Positions 1 through 40,001 of a DNA stretch of 40,387 nucleotides are shown here, piece after piece. A program made the position numbers and the translations under genes. The stretch spans positions 1-40,387 of the IMG/VR virus record IMGVR_UViG_3300042514_002936, one strand, 5' to 3'. How positions within the stretch are numbered: position 1 is the first letter of the stretch; each line of letters starts with the position of its first letter. Under the pieces are notes generated by a model, which saw only the letters and a list, made by a program, of their open reading frames with translations, was not told the DNA's origin and ran no database searches. The stretch is from a virus.

Positions 1-849
1 CTCAGCGCGATCTACATCGACGACCTTGACCGACTTACCGGCCTTGGCCTCGTCGCCGTAGATCATCTTGATAGCTTTGCTGCCCAGGTTGCGGCGCAGG
101 ATGGCCGGGCGACCGGCTTCCAGCGTCTGCTTGTGCACATAGAATTCGTCAGGGTTAACCGCGCCCTGCACCACGGTTTCGCCAAGGCCATACGCGCCAG
201 TGATAAACACCACATCACGGAAGCCTGATTCGGTATCCAGGGTAAACATCACCCCAGCGGTTCCCGTTTCCGAGCGCACCATGCGCTGCACACCGGCAGA
301 CAGGGCGACCAGTTTGTGGTCAAAGCCCTGATGCACGCGATAGGCGATGGCGCGGTCATTGAACAAGGAGGCAAACACTTCTTTGGCGGCGCGAATGACG
401 TTTTCCACACCACGAATGTTCAGGAAAGTTTCCTGCTGGCCGGCAAACGAGGCATCCGGAAGGTCTTCGGCAGTGGCCGAGGAGCGCACAGCAACAGCCA
501 TGTTTTCGTTGCCATTGGCCATGACTGCGAAAGCAGTGCGAATTTGCGTGTTCAGCTCTTCAGGGAAAGAAGCATCCATCACCCACTGACGGATCTGCGC
601 GCCGGTCTTGGCAAGGGCGTTAACGTCATCGACATCCAGCGCGTCAAGCGCCGCATGAATCTGATCGTTCAGGCCGCTCAGTTCGAGAAAGTCGCGATAG
701 GCCTGGGCCGTAGTGGCGAAACCGCCAGGCACCGAAACTCCGGCACCGGCAAGGTTGCTGATCATCTCGCCGAGGGATGCGTTCTTGCCCCCTACGTGCT
801 CAACATCGTGATTGCCGAGCTTATCGAGGGAAACTACGTACTCTACCAA
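1..849 (-). CDS. ppsA: Phosphoenolpyruvate synthase, N-terminal part (host gene, cut by window edge)
   Basis: This is host PpsA, which converts pyruvate and ATP to PEP, AMP and phosphate for gluconeogenesis in the cytoplasm. The visible 283 codons cover most of the N-terminal pyruvate/ATP-binding domain. They include the [10 protein letters not shown] motif near residue 20 and the [21 protein letters not shown]-grasp segment. The start is TTG at 849-847, giving [20 protein letters not shown], typical of Pseudomonas PpsA. A GGAGGG ribosome site lies a few bases upstream. The remaining two thirds of the gene is left of base 1. The gene looks intact, but phage DNA now begins within about 150 bp of its start, so its native upstream promoter and any divergent neighbour have been displaced. 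Confidence 0.97.
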
Positions 850-995
850 GGTGAACCCTCCGAAAATGACCTCTTCACACGCCTAACCCTTTGTTTACTT
901 GAGGTTTTAACCGTATGAAGCCAGTGCGTGAGCGCCCTGAATTAGGCCAGCATGTTAGAATAGTGTTAGAAACCTGTCACCAGTTGGCCTGCCCT
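850..995. other. Host-phage junction, presumed to contain attL
   Basis: This stretch joins the ppsA ribosome site to the integrase start. In integrase-type prophages the attachment site normally lies beside int, upstream or downstream, so attL is inferred to be here. The core cannot be defined without attR, which is outside the window. An ATG at 915 is in frame with int, but the 27 codons it adds look non-coding (see the integrase entry). Confidence 0.6.
953..971 (+). repeat. Tandem TGTTAGAA pair beside int
   Basis: Two exact copies of TGTTAGAA start at 953 and 964, 11 bp apart, about one helical turn. They lie just upstream of int in the presumed attL. Closely spaced direct repeats of this kind are typical of arm-type integrase sites, but a chance or host origin cannot be excluded. 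Confidence 0.4.
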
Positions 996-2402
996 ATGGC
1001 TGCACCTTGGGTGTATCGCCGGTCTGGTGTCTATTACCTGCGTCTTCGCCCATCGGGCACCTCTAAGAAGTCCATAACGCTCTCCCTCCGTACCCGCCTC
1101 AGAGATACCGCCATGCGCCATACCCGTCGAATCCAGGCCACCCTGAAGGTTTTCCATCTGGACCGCCCTGAGGACTCCTGGGAGGAGCTGGTGGGTCCAC
1201 TGAAGGAACTGGCTGAAAACACGCTATGGGAGCTGATCTCCTTGGGGGACCGTGAAGCGAAGGCTATGGATTACTCCGAGCTGCTTGAGGACCTTCAGCA
1301 CATCGCTGCGACCCAGCCGGTTACTTCCAGTCAGGTCAAAGCTATCAAAGTGGGCGCGAGGATACTCCAGGCGGCACAGGCGCGGCTACTTAATGGCGAC
1401 CCTGAGCCACTTGGGGACCTAATTGAGGAACTGAAGGCAGAGACTACTAAGGTTGCCCCAGTGGAGCCTGAAGTGCCACCGAGCGAGTCTAAAGGCCCTG
1501 AGGTCACGTTCAGTTACCTCGCTGGGTTATACCTAACTGAGCAGGCTGATCAATTGAAGCCAGCATCACTAAGGGATATGAAGAGCGCCTGCAAGACACT
1601 GACGGCTGCACTCACTGACCCTGAGGGCAAGGAGCTGGACCTAAGGACCCACACTCGGGAGCACATGACCAACCTGAAGGCTTCCCTTATGGAAGGCCGT
1701 AAGCCGCTCACAGTGAACAAGCTACTCACCCGTATATCGACCATCTTCACCTGGGCGGTGAACAGCGGGTATCTCGAAAAGACCTACAACAAGGGCCTAA
1801 AGATCAGCAAAGGCGCTGAGAGTGGCCGTAAGGCGTTCTCCCCTGAGCAGGTTAAGAAGGTGATGGATGCTATGGGCCAACTCCCAGAAGACTCGTGGAA
1901 GCGCTGGGCGATGTCCCTGGGGATCATCACTGGGGCTCGCATCGGTGAGGTCTACCAGTTGACCAAGGAGGATGTCCGTAAGGTGGGTGACACGGTTGTC
2001 ATCGACCTGAACGAGACTGGGAACAAGTCCCTGAAGAACAAACACTCGAAGCGCCTTGTGCCTCTCGTGGATGGGGCCTACGGGTTCGACCTGAAGGCTT
2101 TCCTTGAGTACGTTGAGTCATGCCCTGATAAGTTGTTTGATCGTACAAGCCACAACTTCACTCGGGTTCTCAATGAGACCCTGAGGGACATCCTTGATCT
2201 GGAGTCTGGTGAAGGCTTGACGTTCCACTCCCTGCGGCACTCCTTGGCGTCCCTGATGAAGCACCACGGGGTCCAAGTAAGCATCGCTCAGGACATCCTG
2301 GGGCACAGCTCGCAGACGATCACCTTCGATCTCTACGGGGGCGATATGCGTCTTGCTATCGGGAAACTCGAAGGGGCTCTGAAGGCTTCCTTCGAGGTCT
2401 AA
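996..2402 (+). CDS. int: Tyrosine recombinase (phage integrase)
   Basis: This site-specific recombinase should integrate and, with any accessory factor, excise the prophage. The N-terminus (AAPWVYRRSGVYYLRLRPSG) resembles the small domain that opens many phage integrases. A core-binding helical domain follows, then the catalytic domain. Catalytic residues visible, numbered from base 996, are Arg315 in TGARIGEV, a Lys in the NKSLKNKHSKRL hairpin, His411 and Arg414 in HSLRH, His in LGHSSQTIT and the nucleophile Tyr447 in DLYGGD. The reading frame is open from ATG 915. ATG 996 is preferred because the protein-like sequence begins there and the upstream part carries the repeat pair. It is on the opposite strand from nearly all phage genes and convergent with gp19.5. 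Its presence makes this T7-type phage temperate. Confidence 0.95.
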   Translation: MAAPWVYRRSGVYYLRLRPSGTSKKSITLSLRTRLRDTAMRHTRRIQATLKVFHLDRPEDSWEELVGPLKELAENTLWELISLGDREAKAMDYSELLEDLQHIAATQPVTSSQVKAIKVGARILQAAQARLLNGDPEPLGDLIEELKAETTKVAPVEPEVPPSESKGPEVTFSYLAGLYLTEQADQLKPASLRDMKSACKTLTAALTDPEGKELDLRTHTREHMTNLKASLMEGRKPLTVNKLLTRISTIFTWAVNSGYLEKTYNKGLKISKGAESGRKAFSPEQVKKVMDAMGQLPEDSWKRWAMSLGIITGARIGEVYQLTKEDVRKVGDTVVIDLNETGNKSLKNKHSKRLVPLVDGAYGFDLKAFLEYVESCPDKLFDRTSHNFTRVLNETLRDILDLESGEGLTFHSLRHSLASLMKHHGVQVSIAQDILGHSSQTITFDLYGGDMRLAIGKLEGALKASFEV

Positions 2403-34405: not shown

Positions 34406-37078
34406 TTATGCGAATGCGAAGTCAGATTGGAGGATCAGTTGGAGGTCCAGCGTTCCGGCTTTAGGCAGGGCTGGCATCTTCTCCAGTTGGGTCTCGTGGA
34501 GCTGGTCCATAAACTCGTTGCGGAACTCAGCAAGGACATCGTTGTTTTCGTAGGTCTCAACCATCGTTTCCCTGACGGCCCTGAACATCTTCCCGGCGTG
34601 TGCTGGGATGGTTCCGAAGGAGTCATGGATGAGGGCGAAGAACTCAATCCCGTAGGACCTATTGGCTTTCACCACGGTCTTCCTGAGGTGGCTACCGTCT
34701 TGGGAGTGAACAAAGTTTGGTGAAACTCCGGCCTCTTGCTTCCTGGCGTCCAACTCTTTCGAGTCCCTGACGACCACGGTGGCCTCCATCCGGTGGGTCC
34801 CGAGGAACATCAGGTCGATGCGCCTCTTTTCCGGCTTGAAGTATTCCTGCCACACAGGGAAACCATCAGGAGTCGTCCAGCTCACCGGGAGGCAAGGCTT
34901 GATGATCTCTTTGGTCTTCTTGTCCTTCACGGTGGTGGCCATCAGCTTCGCCGCCGACTGGAGCCAGTTCATGGCCTCAACGGCTGCAACCACTACGGTG
35001 CTCACTGAGTCCCAGATGTGCTTTGCAAGGTATCGGGCGTATTGGCCAGGGTCGGTAAACATCGTGCCTTCACCGTTATCCACGGCTGGCCTGATGATGT
35101 CCTCCAGAAGCTGGTCACTGAACCCGTACTCCTTGGAGCCATACGGCAGGGTCATCACGGAGCGCTTAGTGACCGAACGGGTCACCTCGTACTCCATCCA
35201 GCCCTTGGCCATCGTTTGGGTTCCCAGGGTCAAGACATCCCGAATCTCTCCGGTCTTCTCGTTGACCTTGGTTCCTGCCTCGTTGAGGGTCCCATTGGTA
35301 ATGTCTGCCAGGAGGCGTTTGTTCACCTCATCAGCCACCAGCCGGTAGATGTCCTGAACCTTTTCCGAAGGGACCAGATTCACAGCCCGACCGCCGCGCT
35401 CATCCCGAAGCATGGCGCTGAAGTGCTGGATACCGGAGCAGGAACCATCGAAAGCGATAGGCAGTGCGGACACATGGAGGTCGCCGTGTTTCTCGACCCC
35501 AGCCCACTCGAAGCAGAACGCCAGGAAGCAGAACGGTGAATCCTTATCCATCCACCATGTGCAACCCAGTGGGTCCTTGGCGACCTCAAGGATCATCGCC
35601 TTGTTGTCCTCGACCCACTTCAGGCGGTCCTCAAAGGACACCTTGTCCACACCGGCAGTGTTTGCCCCGTGGATCGCTAACCACTTGCGGCCATCAGGAC
35701 CAATCGCCTCCCCTTTTGCAGCCTGGAGGAGACCCTTGGTCACATCGTTGCCTTGAGGGTTGAACGCTGGGATCGCGTAGACCCGGCCTCGCCAGTCCAT
35801 GTTGTACGGGAACCAGATGGCCTCGTACTCCTTGAACTTTTCGGCCTGCTCTACGATGAACTCGAAGCGCAGCCTTCTGGATGTCCTGGCGCGCTCTCGG
35901 CGGTAGACCTTGGAGGCGTCTTTCTTCCACTGCTTGAGGATCGTTTCATCCTCGTCCATGCCTTCCTGGCGCTGGGGAAGCTCTTCGCCGCCCAGTGGTG
36001 GGAAATCCTTGATTGGTACGTTCTGCCACTCGGCCAACTCCTTGACCACAGCGAGAACCTTGGTGTTGATCGCCCAGGCGGTCCCTTGTGCGAGGTTTAC
36101 CGCATCGTAGACCTCAGGCATGAAGACATCGCGGTAGCGCTCCAGGGCCTTCTTGTTGCGGACCCGGATGAAGTTCAGGGGCTTGCGGCCTCGTGCCCAG
36201 TAGCCACCACCCTTAACGCCCGTCCACTTCTTCGGTGGGACGACGCAAGGCTGATACACAGGGGCAATCCCCGCGAGACTAAAGGCCCGTTCGCCCATCT
36301 TCTTGACCCACTCAGGGTGCAGGCAGACGGTCTCTTGGTCTTTCTTCACGTTCCCTGCGTGCTCACGAACCACCACGATCAACTCGGTGGATTCGATAAG
36401 GATTTCCATCAGCTTGATGCCAACTTGGAAGCGCCTGTCGTTCTCCGGGTGGGCTTCGTCGCGGTCCCAGGTGACCCATGCGGTGGACAGGTCGCCCGCC
36501 TCAAGCATCTTCTGCTCGACGGCCTTCAGGTACTCCTTCTTGTAGAGCTGGCCGTTGCGCTTATCCAGGGCAGGCTTGACGAAACGCTTGTAGTGCTCCA
36601 CCTCCTCCTCTCGGATTCGCCCGTAGCGCATCTCGTCTTCGATGGTCTGACCTAAGCCAATGGCGACCCGTTGAACCGGACTGCCCTCACCGGACACTGC
36701 CAGGAGGCTCAGGACCCGCTTGATGGTCGCCACTGCGGCGATCTCAGGCTTGAGCTTGCGGAACTCCTCAATGGCCACATGCTTTCGGCGGACCTTGGTG
36801 TTCTGGTGTTCAAGCCATTCGTTGTAGCGGTTTATGAAACGTGGGACCAAGGCCGCCAGCAAGGGCTGGGCAGGCTGGCTATCTGCGAAGTCACCGGACT
36901 CGATGGCTCGCTCCAAGTTCTTCACGAAGCGCTGTTCACCCAGCTCGTAAGCCTCGTGTTCCAGGGCCAGTTGTTGCACTGCAAGGTCCTCACCGAAGAG
37001 CCTTGCGAGTGTCGTGAATGCAGCGGGAGACTCCTTGATGTCGCTGAAGTCGTGTTTTACGGGCAGCAGTGCTCGCAT
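34406..37078 (-). CDS. Phage single-subunit RNA polymerase (T7 Gp1-like)
   Basis: This polymerase transcribes middle and late phage genes from the promoters listed here. It has 890 residues (T7 883). The palm has AFDGSCSGIQHFSAM with the first catalytic Asp near residue 546. MTLPYGSKEYGF supplies the finger Lys/Tyr near 645. IHDSFGT has the second Asp near 820, and the chain ends in the required aromatic foot DFAFA. In the specificity loop, RRIDLMFLGTHRMEATV aligns with T7 TRLNLMFLGQFRLQPTI. Thus Arg746, Asn748 and Gln758 of T7 correspond to Arg753, Asp755 and Glu765. Asp at 748 is the T3-type residue, matching the CC at -11/-10 in the promoters. A phage promoter directly upstream suggests self-amplification. 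Confidence 0.98.
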   Translation of the reverse strand: MRALLPVKHDFSDIKESPAAFTTLARLFGEDLAVQQLALEHEAYELGEQRFVKNLERAIESGDFADSQPAQPLLAALVPRFINRYNEWLEHQNTKVRRKHVAIEEFRKLKPEIAAVATIKRVLSLLAVSGEGSPVQRVAIGLGQTIEDEMRYGRIREEEVEHYKRFVKPALDKRNGQLYKKEYLKAVEQKMLEAGDLSTAWVTWDRDEAHPENDRRFQVGIKLMEILIESTELIVVVREHAGNVKKDQETVCLHPEWVKKMGERAFSLAGIAPVYQPCVVPPKKWTGVKGGGYWARGRKPLNFIRVRNKKALERYRDVFMPEVYDAVNLAQGTAWAINTKVLAVVKELAEWQNVPIKDFPPLGGEELPQRQEGMDEDETILKQWKKDASKVYRRERARTSRRLRFEFIVEQAEKFKEYEAIWFPYNMDWRGRVYAIPAFNPQGNDVTKGLLQAAKGEAIGPDGRKWLAIHGANTAGVDKVSFEDRLKWVEDNKAMILEVAKDPLGCTWWMDKDSPFCFLAFCFEWAGVEKHGDLHVSALPIAFDGSCSGIQHFSAMLRDERGGRAVNLVPSEKVQDIYRLVADEVNKRLLADITNGTLNEAGTKVNEKTGEIRDVLTLGTQTMAKGWMEYEVTRSVTKRSVMTLPYGSKEYGFSDQLLEDIIRPAVDNGEGTMFTDPGQYARYLAKHIWDSVSTVVVAAVEAMNWLQSAAKLMATTVKDKKTKEIIKPCLPVSWTTPDGFPVWQEYFKPEKRRIDLMFLGTHRMEATVVVRDSKELDARKQEAGVSPNFVHSQDGSHLRKTVVKANRSYGIEFFALIHDSFGTIPAHAGKMFRAVRETMVETYENNDVLAEFRNEFMDQLHETQLEKMPALPKAGTLDLQLILQSDFAFA

Positions 37079-37158: not shown

Positions 37159-37182
37159 GTTTCTTTAAGTGAGGGTTTTTAA
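37159..37182 (-). promoter_or_regulatory. Phage RNAP promoter directly upstream of the RNAP gene
   Basis: The leftward sequence TTAAAAACCCTCACTTAAAG keeps the whole core, with TAA rather than NAT before +1. Predicted +1 is A at 37164. It is the most upstream phage promoter in the window. Confidence 0.9.
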
Positions 37183-37185
37183 CTG

Positions 37186-37434
37186 CTACACGCTGATTTC
37201 AATGCGCCCAACGATGTCTGAGAGCTTGTAGACGTAGACCGTTCCACCTATGGAGCCCAGGGTCACCGTGAGTGTTCCTGTAGGCCCTGTGTCGATCCCA
37301 TAGAACAGGTCTTCGTCCCCAGTCGGGCTGTGGAAGGTGGACTTCGCGGAGTGTCCGGTGATCTGGCCGTTGGTGATCTGCGGGACCATGCAGTAGAACT
37401 TGATGGACTTCGCTGCTGTTGCTTTAGTGGTCAT
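37186..37434 (-). CDS. Hypothetical early protein upstream of RNAP
   Basis: 82 residues, strand-rich (GTLTVTLGSIGGTVYVYKL), resembling a small beta domain. ATG 37434 has GAGG eight bases upstream. It lies in the gene 0.7 position of T7 but is unrelated to the T7 kinase. It faces the + strand gene at 37486 across a 51-bp gap with an AACGCAA repeat. Function unknown. Confidence 0.75.
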   Translation of the reverse strand: MTTKATAAKSIKFYCMVPQITNGQITGHSAKSTFHSPTGDEDLFYGIDTGPTGTLTVTLGSIGGTVYVYKLSDIVGRIEISV

Positions 37435-37446
37435 GTTATGATCCTC

Positions 37447-37464
37447 TTACGTTGCGTTACATTA
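37447..37464 (-). repeat. Early-region repeat, copy between divergent genes
   Basis: TAATGTAACGCAACGTAA, read leftward, belongs to the AACGCAATG/AACGTAA family found only in the early region. This copy is between two divergent start codons, a place typical of an operator. Confidence 0.6.
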
Positions 37465-37485
37465 GTTGAATTGATAGAGGCGCTT

Positions 37486-37647
37486 ATGCACCGTCCAGAG
37501 GTAGACCCGCAGGAAACCTCCAGCTTGTCCCGCTTTGCGATCCCTGCGGGCACCCAAGCCCCAGCCCTTAGCCAGTCTTTGGTGGACGCTTTCAATGCGG
37601 CTGTTGCTCACGAGCGCTTCGATTACGAAGAGCCTGAGGAAGACTAA
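37486..37647 (+). CDS. Small acidic protein on the + strand, divergent from early genes
   Basis: 53 codons from ATG 37486, five bases after GAGG. The frame also extends upstream into the opposite gene, but this ATG has the only good signal. The product is LSQSLVDAFNAAVAHERF followed by an acidic end (DYEEPEED), with no helix-turn-helix visible. No competing gene exists on the other strand over this interval. Apart from int it is the only phage gene read rightward. This suggests expression in the lysogen. Function unknown. Confidence 0.6.
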   Translation: MHRPEVDPQETSSLSRFAIPAGTQAPALSQSLVDAFNAAVAHERFDYEEPEED

Positions 37648-37699
37648 AGCCCTCCCCTTCCCGCTTTAAACTGCCTTGCGTGGTCCTCCTTCTGGTTTA

Positions 37700-38197
37700 T
37701 CAGGAGGAGAGAACCGCTAAGGCTTCCTCCTGTTTCTTGAGTTCTGTGCGAGCCTCTTCGATTGCCTTGTGGCACTCTCGGATGACCTCTTGATTGCACT
37801 CAATGCGGTCCTTGAGTAGGGCGCACTTGATGCGTATAGCTTCGATGGGATCAACTACAGGCTTAGCCGTGCAGTGGCTCGCCTTCTGTTCTTGTGGCGC
37901 ACTCTTGGCCCGTGGTCGGCCTGCCCGTGGGAGGGTCAGCTTGAACTTGCTTCGGAAGTTCTCTGCGTCCTTAGGCTTCAGCCCTACAGACTCCAGTTCC
38001 TGGCGAGACCAGCCCGCAAAGTGCAGCCGTGTGGCCAGCTTGGAAGCCTCAGTGGCTTGAGGCCCCCACGGGTTCCCTTCATGCTCCTCCATGATCTTCT
38101 TGAAGGCGTCAGAGAACGGGACGGTATCGTCAACAGGGATTCCGTCCATGCTCTCCAGTAGAGGCGCGATGTCCTCTGTGAAGGGTACTGTGGCCAC
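37700..38197 (-). CDS. Early protein with possible DNA-binding segment and coiled coil
   Basis: 165 residues from GTG 38197, with AAAAGGAG eight bases upstream. ATG 38218 is in frame but has poor spacing. The N-terminus carries two copies of a TVPF(T/S)-x-x motif. A central LATRLHFAGWSRQELESVGLKPKDAENF could be a helix-turn-helix. It is followed by basic AGRPRAKS, an AT-hook-like GRPR. The C-terminal 55 residues are a charged heptad-like helix. It is preceded by a terminator and lies two genes before RNAP. A regulator is possible; I do not recognise the family. Confidence 0.75.
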   Translation of the reverse strand: MATVPFTEDIAPLLESMDGIPVDDTVPFSDAFKKIMEEHEGNPWGPQATEASKLATRLHFAGWSRQELESVGLKPKDAENFRSKFKLTLPRAGRPRAKSAPQEQKASHCTAKPVVDPIEAIRIKCALLKDRIECNQEVIRECHKAIEEARTELKKQEEALAVLSS

Positions 38198-38242
38198 GAT
38201 ATGTGCTCCTTTTTGCATACGATTCGGGTCTTTCCTTGAGCC

Positions 38243-38268: not shown

Positions 38269-38343
38269 CGCTTGAGGCTCGTTAGGTGTGACTTTGGGAG
38301 GCGCGAGAAGTCGGCCTCCTCAGGATGCTTGTCTTTGTCATTG

Positions 38344-38391
38344 CCTTACGTTCCATTGGCCAGTTGCCTGGCATTGCGTTGCTTTAAGTGT
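38344..38391 (-). repeat. Early-region AACGCAATG repeats, copy set 2
   Basis: AAAGCAACGCAATGCC and AATGGAACGTAAGG, read leftward, directly follow the hairpin at 38386-38440. The order hairpin then repeat is the same as at 39147 and 39787. Confidence 0.6.
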
Positions 38392-38440
38392 GACCAGATG
38401 AGGCCCCGTGGTTCGCTCAGGGCCTCGCCTTGTTACACTC
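38386..38440 (-). other. Imperfect long hairpin, likely RNase III site (copy 1)
   Basis: GAGGCCC and GGGCCTC form the inner stem. Outer pairing continues through AACAAGG...TCTGGT to GTGT...ACAC, with a C-A and an A-G mismatch at fixed places. It lies in the gap after the ArdA gene. The same architecture with different sequence recurs at 39147 and 39787. T7 early mRNAs are cut by RNase III at such hairpins. Confidence 0.75.
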
Positions 38441-39090: not shown

Positions 39091-39146
39091 TACGTTATAT
39101 CCTTACGTTACATTGCGTTATATTGGCTTTACATTGCGTTGCATTA
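39090..39146 (-). repeat. Early-region AACGCAATG repeats, copy set 3 (ArdA leader)
   Basis: Read leftward it holds CAACGCAATGTAA, then TATAACGCAATGTAACGTAAGG, then ATATAACGTAATG at the ArdA start. This is at least four units in 57 bp, the densest cluster. It follows the hairpin at 39147-39196. Confidence 0.7.
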
Positions 39147-39196
39147 GTGCTTCCAGCGGAGACCCCGAGGCTCTTCAGGGTCTCGACTTGAACAAC
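39147..39196 (-). other. Imperfect long hairpin, likely RNase III site (copy 2)
   Basis: GAGACCC and GGGTCTC form the inner stem. Outward, GTTCAAGTC faces CGCTGGAA with the same C-C and A-G mismatches as copy 3. Inner base pairs differ from copy 3 by compensating changes, which supports an RNA structure. Confidence 0.8.
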
Positions 39197-39313
39197 TCAG
39201 TGGACGGATTTGATGCGTTTAAGCGGGAGACCGCAGGAGTTCGCAAAGGTCTTCGCCTCGCTGTAACTCAGGAAATACTTGGTGAGCAGCGGGCCTAATC
39301 GAATCTTGTACAT
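39197..39313 (-). CDS. 38-residue early protein
   Basis: ATG 39313 overlaps the previous stop (TAATG) and follows AAGGAGG, a strong site. The product is basic (MYKIRLGPLLTKYFLSYSEAK, ending GLPLKRIKSVH). It ends just before the hairpin at 39147. Function unknown. Confidence 0.65.
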   Translation of the reverse strand: MYKIRLGPLLTKYFLSYSEAKTFANSCGLPLKRIKSVH

Positions 39314-39755: not shown

Positions 39756-39767
39756 GGTGTTGCTCCT

Positions 39768-39792
39768 CATTGCATTGCTTTACGTTGTGAAT
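39768..39792 (-). repeat. Early-region AACG/CAATG repeats, copy set 4
   Basis: ACAACGTAAAGCAATGCAATG, read leftward (last base omitted from the count of the unit), overlaps the end of hairpin copy 3 and leads into the 56-residue gene's ribosome site. Confidence 0.5.
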
Positions 39793-39839
39793 CCAGCGGA
39801 GCACCCTCGGTACGTCTGAAGGTGCTCGACTTGAACCAC
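39787..39839 (-). other. Imperfect long hairpin, likely RNase III site (copy 3)
   Basis: GAGCACC and GGTGCTC form the inner stem. GTGGTTCAAGTC then faces CGCTGGATTCAC with C-C, A-G and T-T mismatches spaced along about 19 pairs. It begins right at the stop of the preceding gene. The structure is shared with copy 2, with covarying inner pairs. Confidence 0.8.
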
Positions 39840-40001
39840 TTATAGCCCTGCGAACTGACGTGCCTCCTCTACTGTCCCAAAGTCCGCCACCCACATGTGC
39901 AGTCCATCAGCGTCCGCCTCGTACACACCAAAGAACTCAGCCTGATCCTCTGAGACTTCCTCAATGTCATCCTCTACCTCACGACATCCTCTAACCCACA
40001 T
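39840..40001 (-). CDS. Small acidic early protein
   Basis: 53 residues from ATG 40001, with GAGG eight bases upstream; a TTG twelve codons earlier is less likely. The sequence MWVRGCREVEDDIEEVSEDQAEFFGVYEAD...MWVADFGTVEEARQFAG is acidic and compact. Small acidic early proteins are often host-factor inhibitors or DNA mimics, but nothing specific can be assigned. Confidence 0.7.
   Translation of the reverse strand: MWVRGCREVEDDIEEVSEDQAEFFGVYEADADGLHMWVADFGTVEEARQFAGL

Follow-up and report, generated by a model that had tools for sequence, protein, structure and literature searches.

In IMGVR_UViG_3300042514_002936, a 40.4-kb viral contig from a T7-type phage that is referred to here over its whole length as the window, a 53-aa ORF (pep53, the microgene) lies one gene from the phage RNA polymerase gene, on the strand opposite to the early operon (Table 1). 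It is divergent from the 82-aa early gene, which is the sole gene between it and the polymerase gene in the window, and convergent with the gene on its other side, either the 172-aa gene or a dioxygenase gene. The first-pass annotation had described this ORF as possessing a good ribosome-binding site, as facing the leftward 82-aa gene over a 51-bp gap holding TAATGTAACGCAACGTAA and as the only rightward phage gene besides int. On all these points our analysis concurs: the coordinates give a divergent pair separated by exactly 51 bp (37435–37485), the repeat is found there without mismatch on the – strand, and the orientation fits that of Warsawvirus 3MF5, in which all annotated genes but the integrase run in one direction. 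Downstream of the microgene there is a stable hairpin (–23 kcal/mol, z –2.4) without a T run.

Table 1. Features of the microgene region and of the phage genome ends, with positions in the window
Feature	Position	Strand	Remarks
attL core AAGGTGAACCCTCC, at start of host ppsA	848–861		Matches 3MF5 and SID14000 sites
Tyrosine integrase gene	915–2402	+	Other rightward gene, late end of phage; phrog_1, E=4.8e-45
T7-type RNA polymerase gene	34406–37078	–	phrog_414, 1013 bits
Phage RNA polymerase promoter core TTAAAAACCCTCACT	37168–37182	–	Ahead of RNA polymerase gene
82-aa early gene	37186–37434	–	Weak C-terminal similarity to T3 gene 1.05 protein, short of the Pfam cut-off
Ribosome-binding site AGAGGA of 82-aa gene	37442–37447	–	
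(AAYGY) pentamer repeat TAATGTAACGCAACGTAA	37447–37464	–	Leader of 82-aa gene; exact match
Ribosome-binding site AGAGG of microgene	37476–37480	+	5 nt before ATG
53-aa antisense microgene (pep53)	37486–37647	+	ATG start; frame kept in six relatives
172-aa gene	37700–38218	–	Convergent with microgene; predicted three-helix HTH-like core, long C-terminal helix
(AAYGY) repeat	38371–38380	–	Upstream of 172-aa gene
Two (AAYGY) repeats (39105, 39131)	39105–39145	–	Leader of ArdA-like gene

Both a T7-type RNA polymerase and matching promoters are present in the window, where the promoter core TTAAAAACCCTCACT has nine matches (0.62 expected), all nine on the – strand. Also encoded are a gp2-type RNA polymerase inhibitor, T7-like 6.5, 6.7 and virion assembly proteins and, among the early genes, an ArdA-like protein. 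The left end, as read from its translation without a database search, is presumably the start of host ppsA, and this start is fused to phage DNA just before the integrase gene. The att core AAGGTGAACCCTCC matches the phage site of 3MF5, AAGGTGGACCCTCC, as well as the right end of the prophage of Pseudomonas sp. SID14000, AAGGTGATCTCTCC, and the TGTTAGAA repeats near it look like integrase arm-type sites. As ppsA is joined to phage DNA and an integrase, an att core and arm-like repeats are all present, the phage is, to judge by its anatomy, an integrated temperate T7-like Pseudomonas prophage related to the genus Warsawvirus. The integration site is the start of ppsA, within the ppsA–ppsR intergenic region; the att core is short, and the arm-type repeats extend into the integrase gene (window 848–970; L078:4950–5950; L090:40900–41608).

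The nearest named phages are Warsawvirus vB_PsyP_3MF5 (L003), phTUNSm (L004) and phTUNSv (L005), which have the same early-region layout as the window and, like it, a reversed integrase gene at the late end; the window integrase is 72–74 % identical to those of 3MF5 and phTUNS. Unlike these phages, the window has no dioxygenase gene separating the microgene from the 172-aa gene. The complete SID14000 prophage (L078) has an integrase of the same family (68 %) and is located between ppsA and a flanking gene that we take to be ppsR.

Homologues of the microgene were found by tblastn and profile searches in 3MF5, phTUNSv and four metagenomic contigs (L006, L007, L008 and L023), with HMM E-values of 1e-24 to 1e-34, and in six of six it lies opposite the early operon and adjoins the 82-aa gene. 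The reading frame, whose loss in relatives was to have counted against the original proposal, is kept in all of them and shows a clear third-position bias, L007 and L003 differing over 49 codons at 2 first, 3 second and 19 third positions. The pN/pS ratio is 0.05–0.19 among the four closest relatives and 0.24–0.59 among more distant pairs, a GAGG-type ribosome site is kept in L003, L005, L006, L007 and L023, and the reverse frames across the microgene are broken in most relatives. The notion that the ORF is spurious, or matters only as an antisense RNA, can appeal to the fact that it is annotated in neither 3MF5 nor phTUNSv, but the codon bias, the low pN/pS of the frame, the interrupted reverse frames and the retained ribosome site all tell against it; the codon evidence rules it out, and we give it practically no weight. 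The 53-aa ORF is almost certainly a genuine small protein gene, one that is conserved and was previously unannotated. The window protein is 47 % identical to the 3MF5 and phTUNSv versions, and the family has a conserved core of approximately LSRFAIPxGSxxPALSxxLVxDxEAAVAREHFDYD and an acidic end. Searches found no Pfam or PHROGs family and no PDB sequence relative, and the predicted model gave no fold match; this model consists of two short helices (pLDDT 74, pTM 0.35), so that fold matches for it carry little weight. Neither family searches nor the predicted fold gave an HTH or other DNA-binding feature.

No HTH family was found for either of the two divergent genes, the fold being examined for the microgene only. 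A crude scan for sigma-70 sites over the 3.5-kb region returned a single one, elsewhere than in the gap. The best window site in a weight-matrix scan, TTGATG-17-TTTAGT (37400–37428), falls inside the 82-aa gene and scores among the best 1 % when compared with random genome windows; against composition-matched shuffles the signal is gone (p=0.16), and it was rejected as a rightward sigma-70 promoter. Nor did any rightward promoter exceed such shuffles in the relatives (p=0.15–0.91), a comparison in which weak promoters would be missed. A rightward phage promoter was likewise rejected, every match to the promoter core in the window being on the – strand.

The repeat in the gap belongs to a wider family. 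With up to three mismatches, TAATGTAACGCAACGTAA has three copies in the window against 0.00 expected, 3/3 of them on the – strand. Tandem AAYGY pentamers of two or more units number four in the window, eight in L006, six in L008 and four in L046, where chance would give 0.05–0.55 per sequence, and every clade member has them solely on the strand that is sense for the early genes. Within the window the repeats precede leftward genes, and three of the sites also have a 9–10-bp G+C-rich hairpin; the leader carrying the AAYGY repeat is itself unstructured. At 38341–38440, 39091–39198 and 39765–39840 of the – strand the order is hairpin, AAYGY, ribosome site and start codon, a module that resembles the early-mRNA processing sites of T7 in its placement. 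We infer that the AAYGY repeats are part of an early-gene mRNA leader module acting in processing or translation. The genomes of 3MF5, phTUNSv, L007 and L023 have one AAYGY run, six units long, before the first early gene; all four carry the microgene, yet have no AAYGY repeat in the microgene gap. As the repeat belongs to a sense-strand leader family shared with other early genes, and as the gap copy is not conserved among carriers, it is very probably not a switch operator, and the earlier suggestion that an iterated site of a genetic switch lies in the gap finds no support, the repeat being a leader repeat of early genes that is not special to this position.

The first-pass annotation had seen no repressor of a known family in the window, and we too recognized none among the early and middle proteins scanned; a search of the window with PF01047 (MarR) gave no match at E≤1. 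It had also allowed for a repressor beyond the right edge, where about 1 kb of the prophage is missing from the window. In the complete SID14000 prophage the first early gene lies about 0.9 kb from the chromosomal junction; this stretch contains no recognizable repressor gene, and the part of 3MF5 that matches it holds short ORFs only. In phTUNSv an anti-repressor gene (L005:3386–4240, – strand; PHROGs E 5e-18), not present in the window, lies between the RNA polymerase gene and the 82-aa gene, a hint that the system does include a repressor. Of the proteins encoded nearby, the 172-aa product looks the most like a DNA-binding one and is a candidate DNA-binding regulator on the strength of its predicted model, in which helices 57–67, 72–77 and 82–91 are of high confidence and are joined by a helix at 124–171. 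Its invariant residues lie around LATRL..AGW...VGLK.K..ENFR. Among phage records the gene is found in 3MF5 and phTUNSm only, and it is missing in phTUNSv, L060 and L078 (SID14000). A known regulator fold was rejected in the absence of a significant PDB match; the best viral fold match is an uncharacterised protein of Pseudomonas phage 67PfluR64PP. Because phTUNSv and SID14000 lack the gene, its product cannot be the general repressor.

The four microgene carriers with records that reach the integrase position (the window, 3MF5, phTUNSv and L006) all have an integrase. A search of about 60 further T7-like loci found no microgene (best E 0.45), and 3MF5 and phTUNSv were its only matches in 50,697 phage records. 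Its profile had no match in 398 Pseudomonadaceae genomes, a set without a positive control, so that this null is uninformative. phTUNSm, which was isolated as a phage, differs from the window in having no microgene and has kept its integrase; a deletion of roughly 1 kb, both flanks of which match phTUNSv exactly, has removed the 82-aa gene together with the microgene. phTUNSv is in turn without the 172-aa and ArdA genes, so that the two phages form a natural deletion pair. L060 and L078 have also kept the integrase with no detectable microgene homologue, and they and L046 have a different acidic antisense ORF in its place. This second family (L078:8799–8978 and L046:2117–2287, both – strand; 44 % identity between them) lies upstream of the RNA polymerase gene, and homology to the microgene was not detected (hhalign probability 0.1). 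The presence of a separate ORF in these three loci suggests that the antisense position itself is favoured. Neither family occurs in the stretches read of the G109, G196 and G275 prophages, in which, as in LUZ100, the integrase gene lies in the early region. In two of these T7-like Pseudomonas prophages, G109 and G275 (L091 and L093), the integrase gene is co-directional with the RNA polymerase gene and stands beside conserved lipoprotein-like and 107–111-aa genes, a second temperate layout; in another Pseudomonas genome, G227 (L088), the T7-like RNA polymerase gene has one internal TAA and the locus is a probable decayed prophage. The microgene is confined to a clade of integrase-bearing T7-like phages and its link to the integrase is not strict; this restriction may be due to the common descent of a single small clade and not to function.

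T7-like phages have long been taken as strictly lytic. LUZ100, a T7-like Pseudomonas phage with an integrase, has a phage promoter immediately in front of the RNA polymerase gene and, upstream of that gene, an integrase and a MarR gene in one operon; stable lysogens were not obtained (PMC10134795). The window resembles LUZ100 in its integrase and in the phage promoter before the polymerase gene, and differs from it in the lack of MarR, in the presence of the antisense microgene and in the position of the integrase gene, which is at the opposite end of the genome and reversed relative to the polymerase gene (PMC10134795). The Fildesvirus vB_PaeM-G11, a temperate member of the Autographiviridae induced from a Pseudomonas lysogen, is reported with every gene on one strand (PMC10142737); its integrase is related to that of the window (42 %), whereas it has no microgene homologue. 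As in the divergent repressor switches of the lambda and P2 types, two divergent genes face each other over a short gap in the window, but an HTH protein, a gap-specific operator-like repeat and paired promoters were not found there.

Our preferred reading, to which we assign a probability of roughly 40 %, is that the microgene encodes an accessory protein for the temperate state and that its transcription works against the early operon. It would be a clade-specific accessory gene, probably expressed while the lytic early operon is silent. Host RNA polymerase would transcribe it rightward, mainly while the leftward early operon is quiet, that is, in the prophage or just after entry, and the acidic peptide, with its two short predicted helices and no HTH, may bind a protein partner. 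The two directions of transcription would be mutually opposing through this stretch, and we propose that the early operon, once active, would silence the microgene, and that rightward transcription would in turn impede the operon. The microgene would then be an accessory part of temperate life, neither a repressor nor an operator-based switch, and the gap repeat would serve the 82-aa gene as an element of its mRNA leader. We favour this reading over the somewhat unlikely alternative of a moron-type gene, expressed from the prophage, whose product would target the host or newly arriving phages (candidate roles being superinfection exclusion, counter-defence and anti-host activity) and would have no part in the lysis–lysogeny decision. 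The orientation against the operon, the accessory presence, the loss in phTUNSm, the replacement by an unrelated ORF in L060, L078 and L046 and the company of ArdA and dioxygenase genes would all suit a moron, but no terminator or consensus promoter of its own was recognized, and the gene occupies one position in seven genomes, whereas a moron should turn up at varying positions.

A bolder version, in which convergent transcription and a small protein inhibitor together silence the polymerase gene in the prophage as a repressor-free lysogeny switch, the slot being filled repeatedly by unrelated microgenes of the pep53 and L078 types, strikes us as quite unlikely. We hold it to be very unlikely that the actual regulator is the 172-aa protein, which would repress early promoters through its predicted HTH-like core and coiled-coil tail while the microgene modulates it, as a protein antagonist or by convergent transcription into its gene; the confidently predicted helices, the invariant residues and the phage-record matches confined to 3MF5 and phTUNSm favour this, but the gene is missing in three related genomes, has only an uncharacterised viral protein as its best fold match and no significant one in the PDB, and is located within the lytic early operon. 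An equally slim chance attaches to a lytic early protein, made early by host polymerase like its neighbours and reversed by historical accident: the microgene does lie among early genes and is kept in the plaque-forming isolates 3MF5 and phTUNSv, but its transcription would have to run counter to that of the early operon, and its orientation is constant across the clade. Slightly less likely again is a switch in which opposed promoters flank an iterated operator in the gap and the microgene product acts as regulator. The divergent genes, the 51-bp spacing, the repeat and the failure to find another known repressor invite such a model; against it stand the repeat's confinement to the sense strand, its presence in other early leaders and absence from the gap of four carriers, a product without an HTH and the lack of conserved promoters in the gap.

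Of the candidate lysis–lysogeny control point put forward in the first-pass annotation there remain a real divergent gene and its occurrence in a temperate clade only, while the operator, promoter and DNA-binding features of a switch were not found. For the accessory gene of the temperate state that we favour, a role in lysogeny control is possible and is put no higher because the repeat is not an operator, promoter and DNA-binding features were not detected, and phTUNSm, L060 and L078 are exceptions. The mechanism proposed for quieting a T7-like prophage, the MarR gene next to the integrase gene of LUZ100, is missing in the window phage, and a conserved antisense protein gene, one gene from the polymerase gene in an integrase-bearing clade, is a small and testable candidate for such quieting. 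Even if it is merely accessory, the microgene shows that the annotation of Warsawvirus misses conserved antisense genes.
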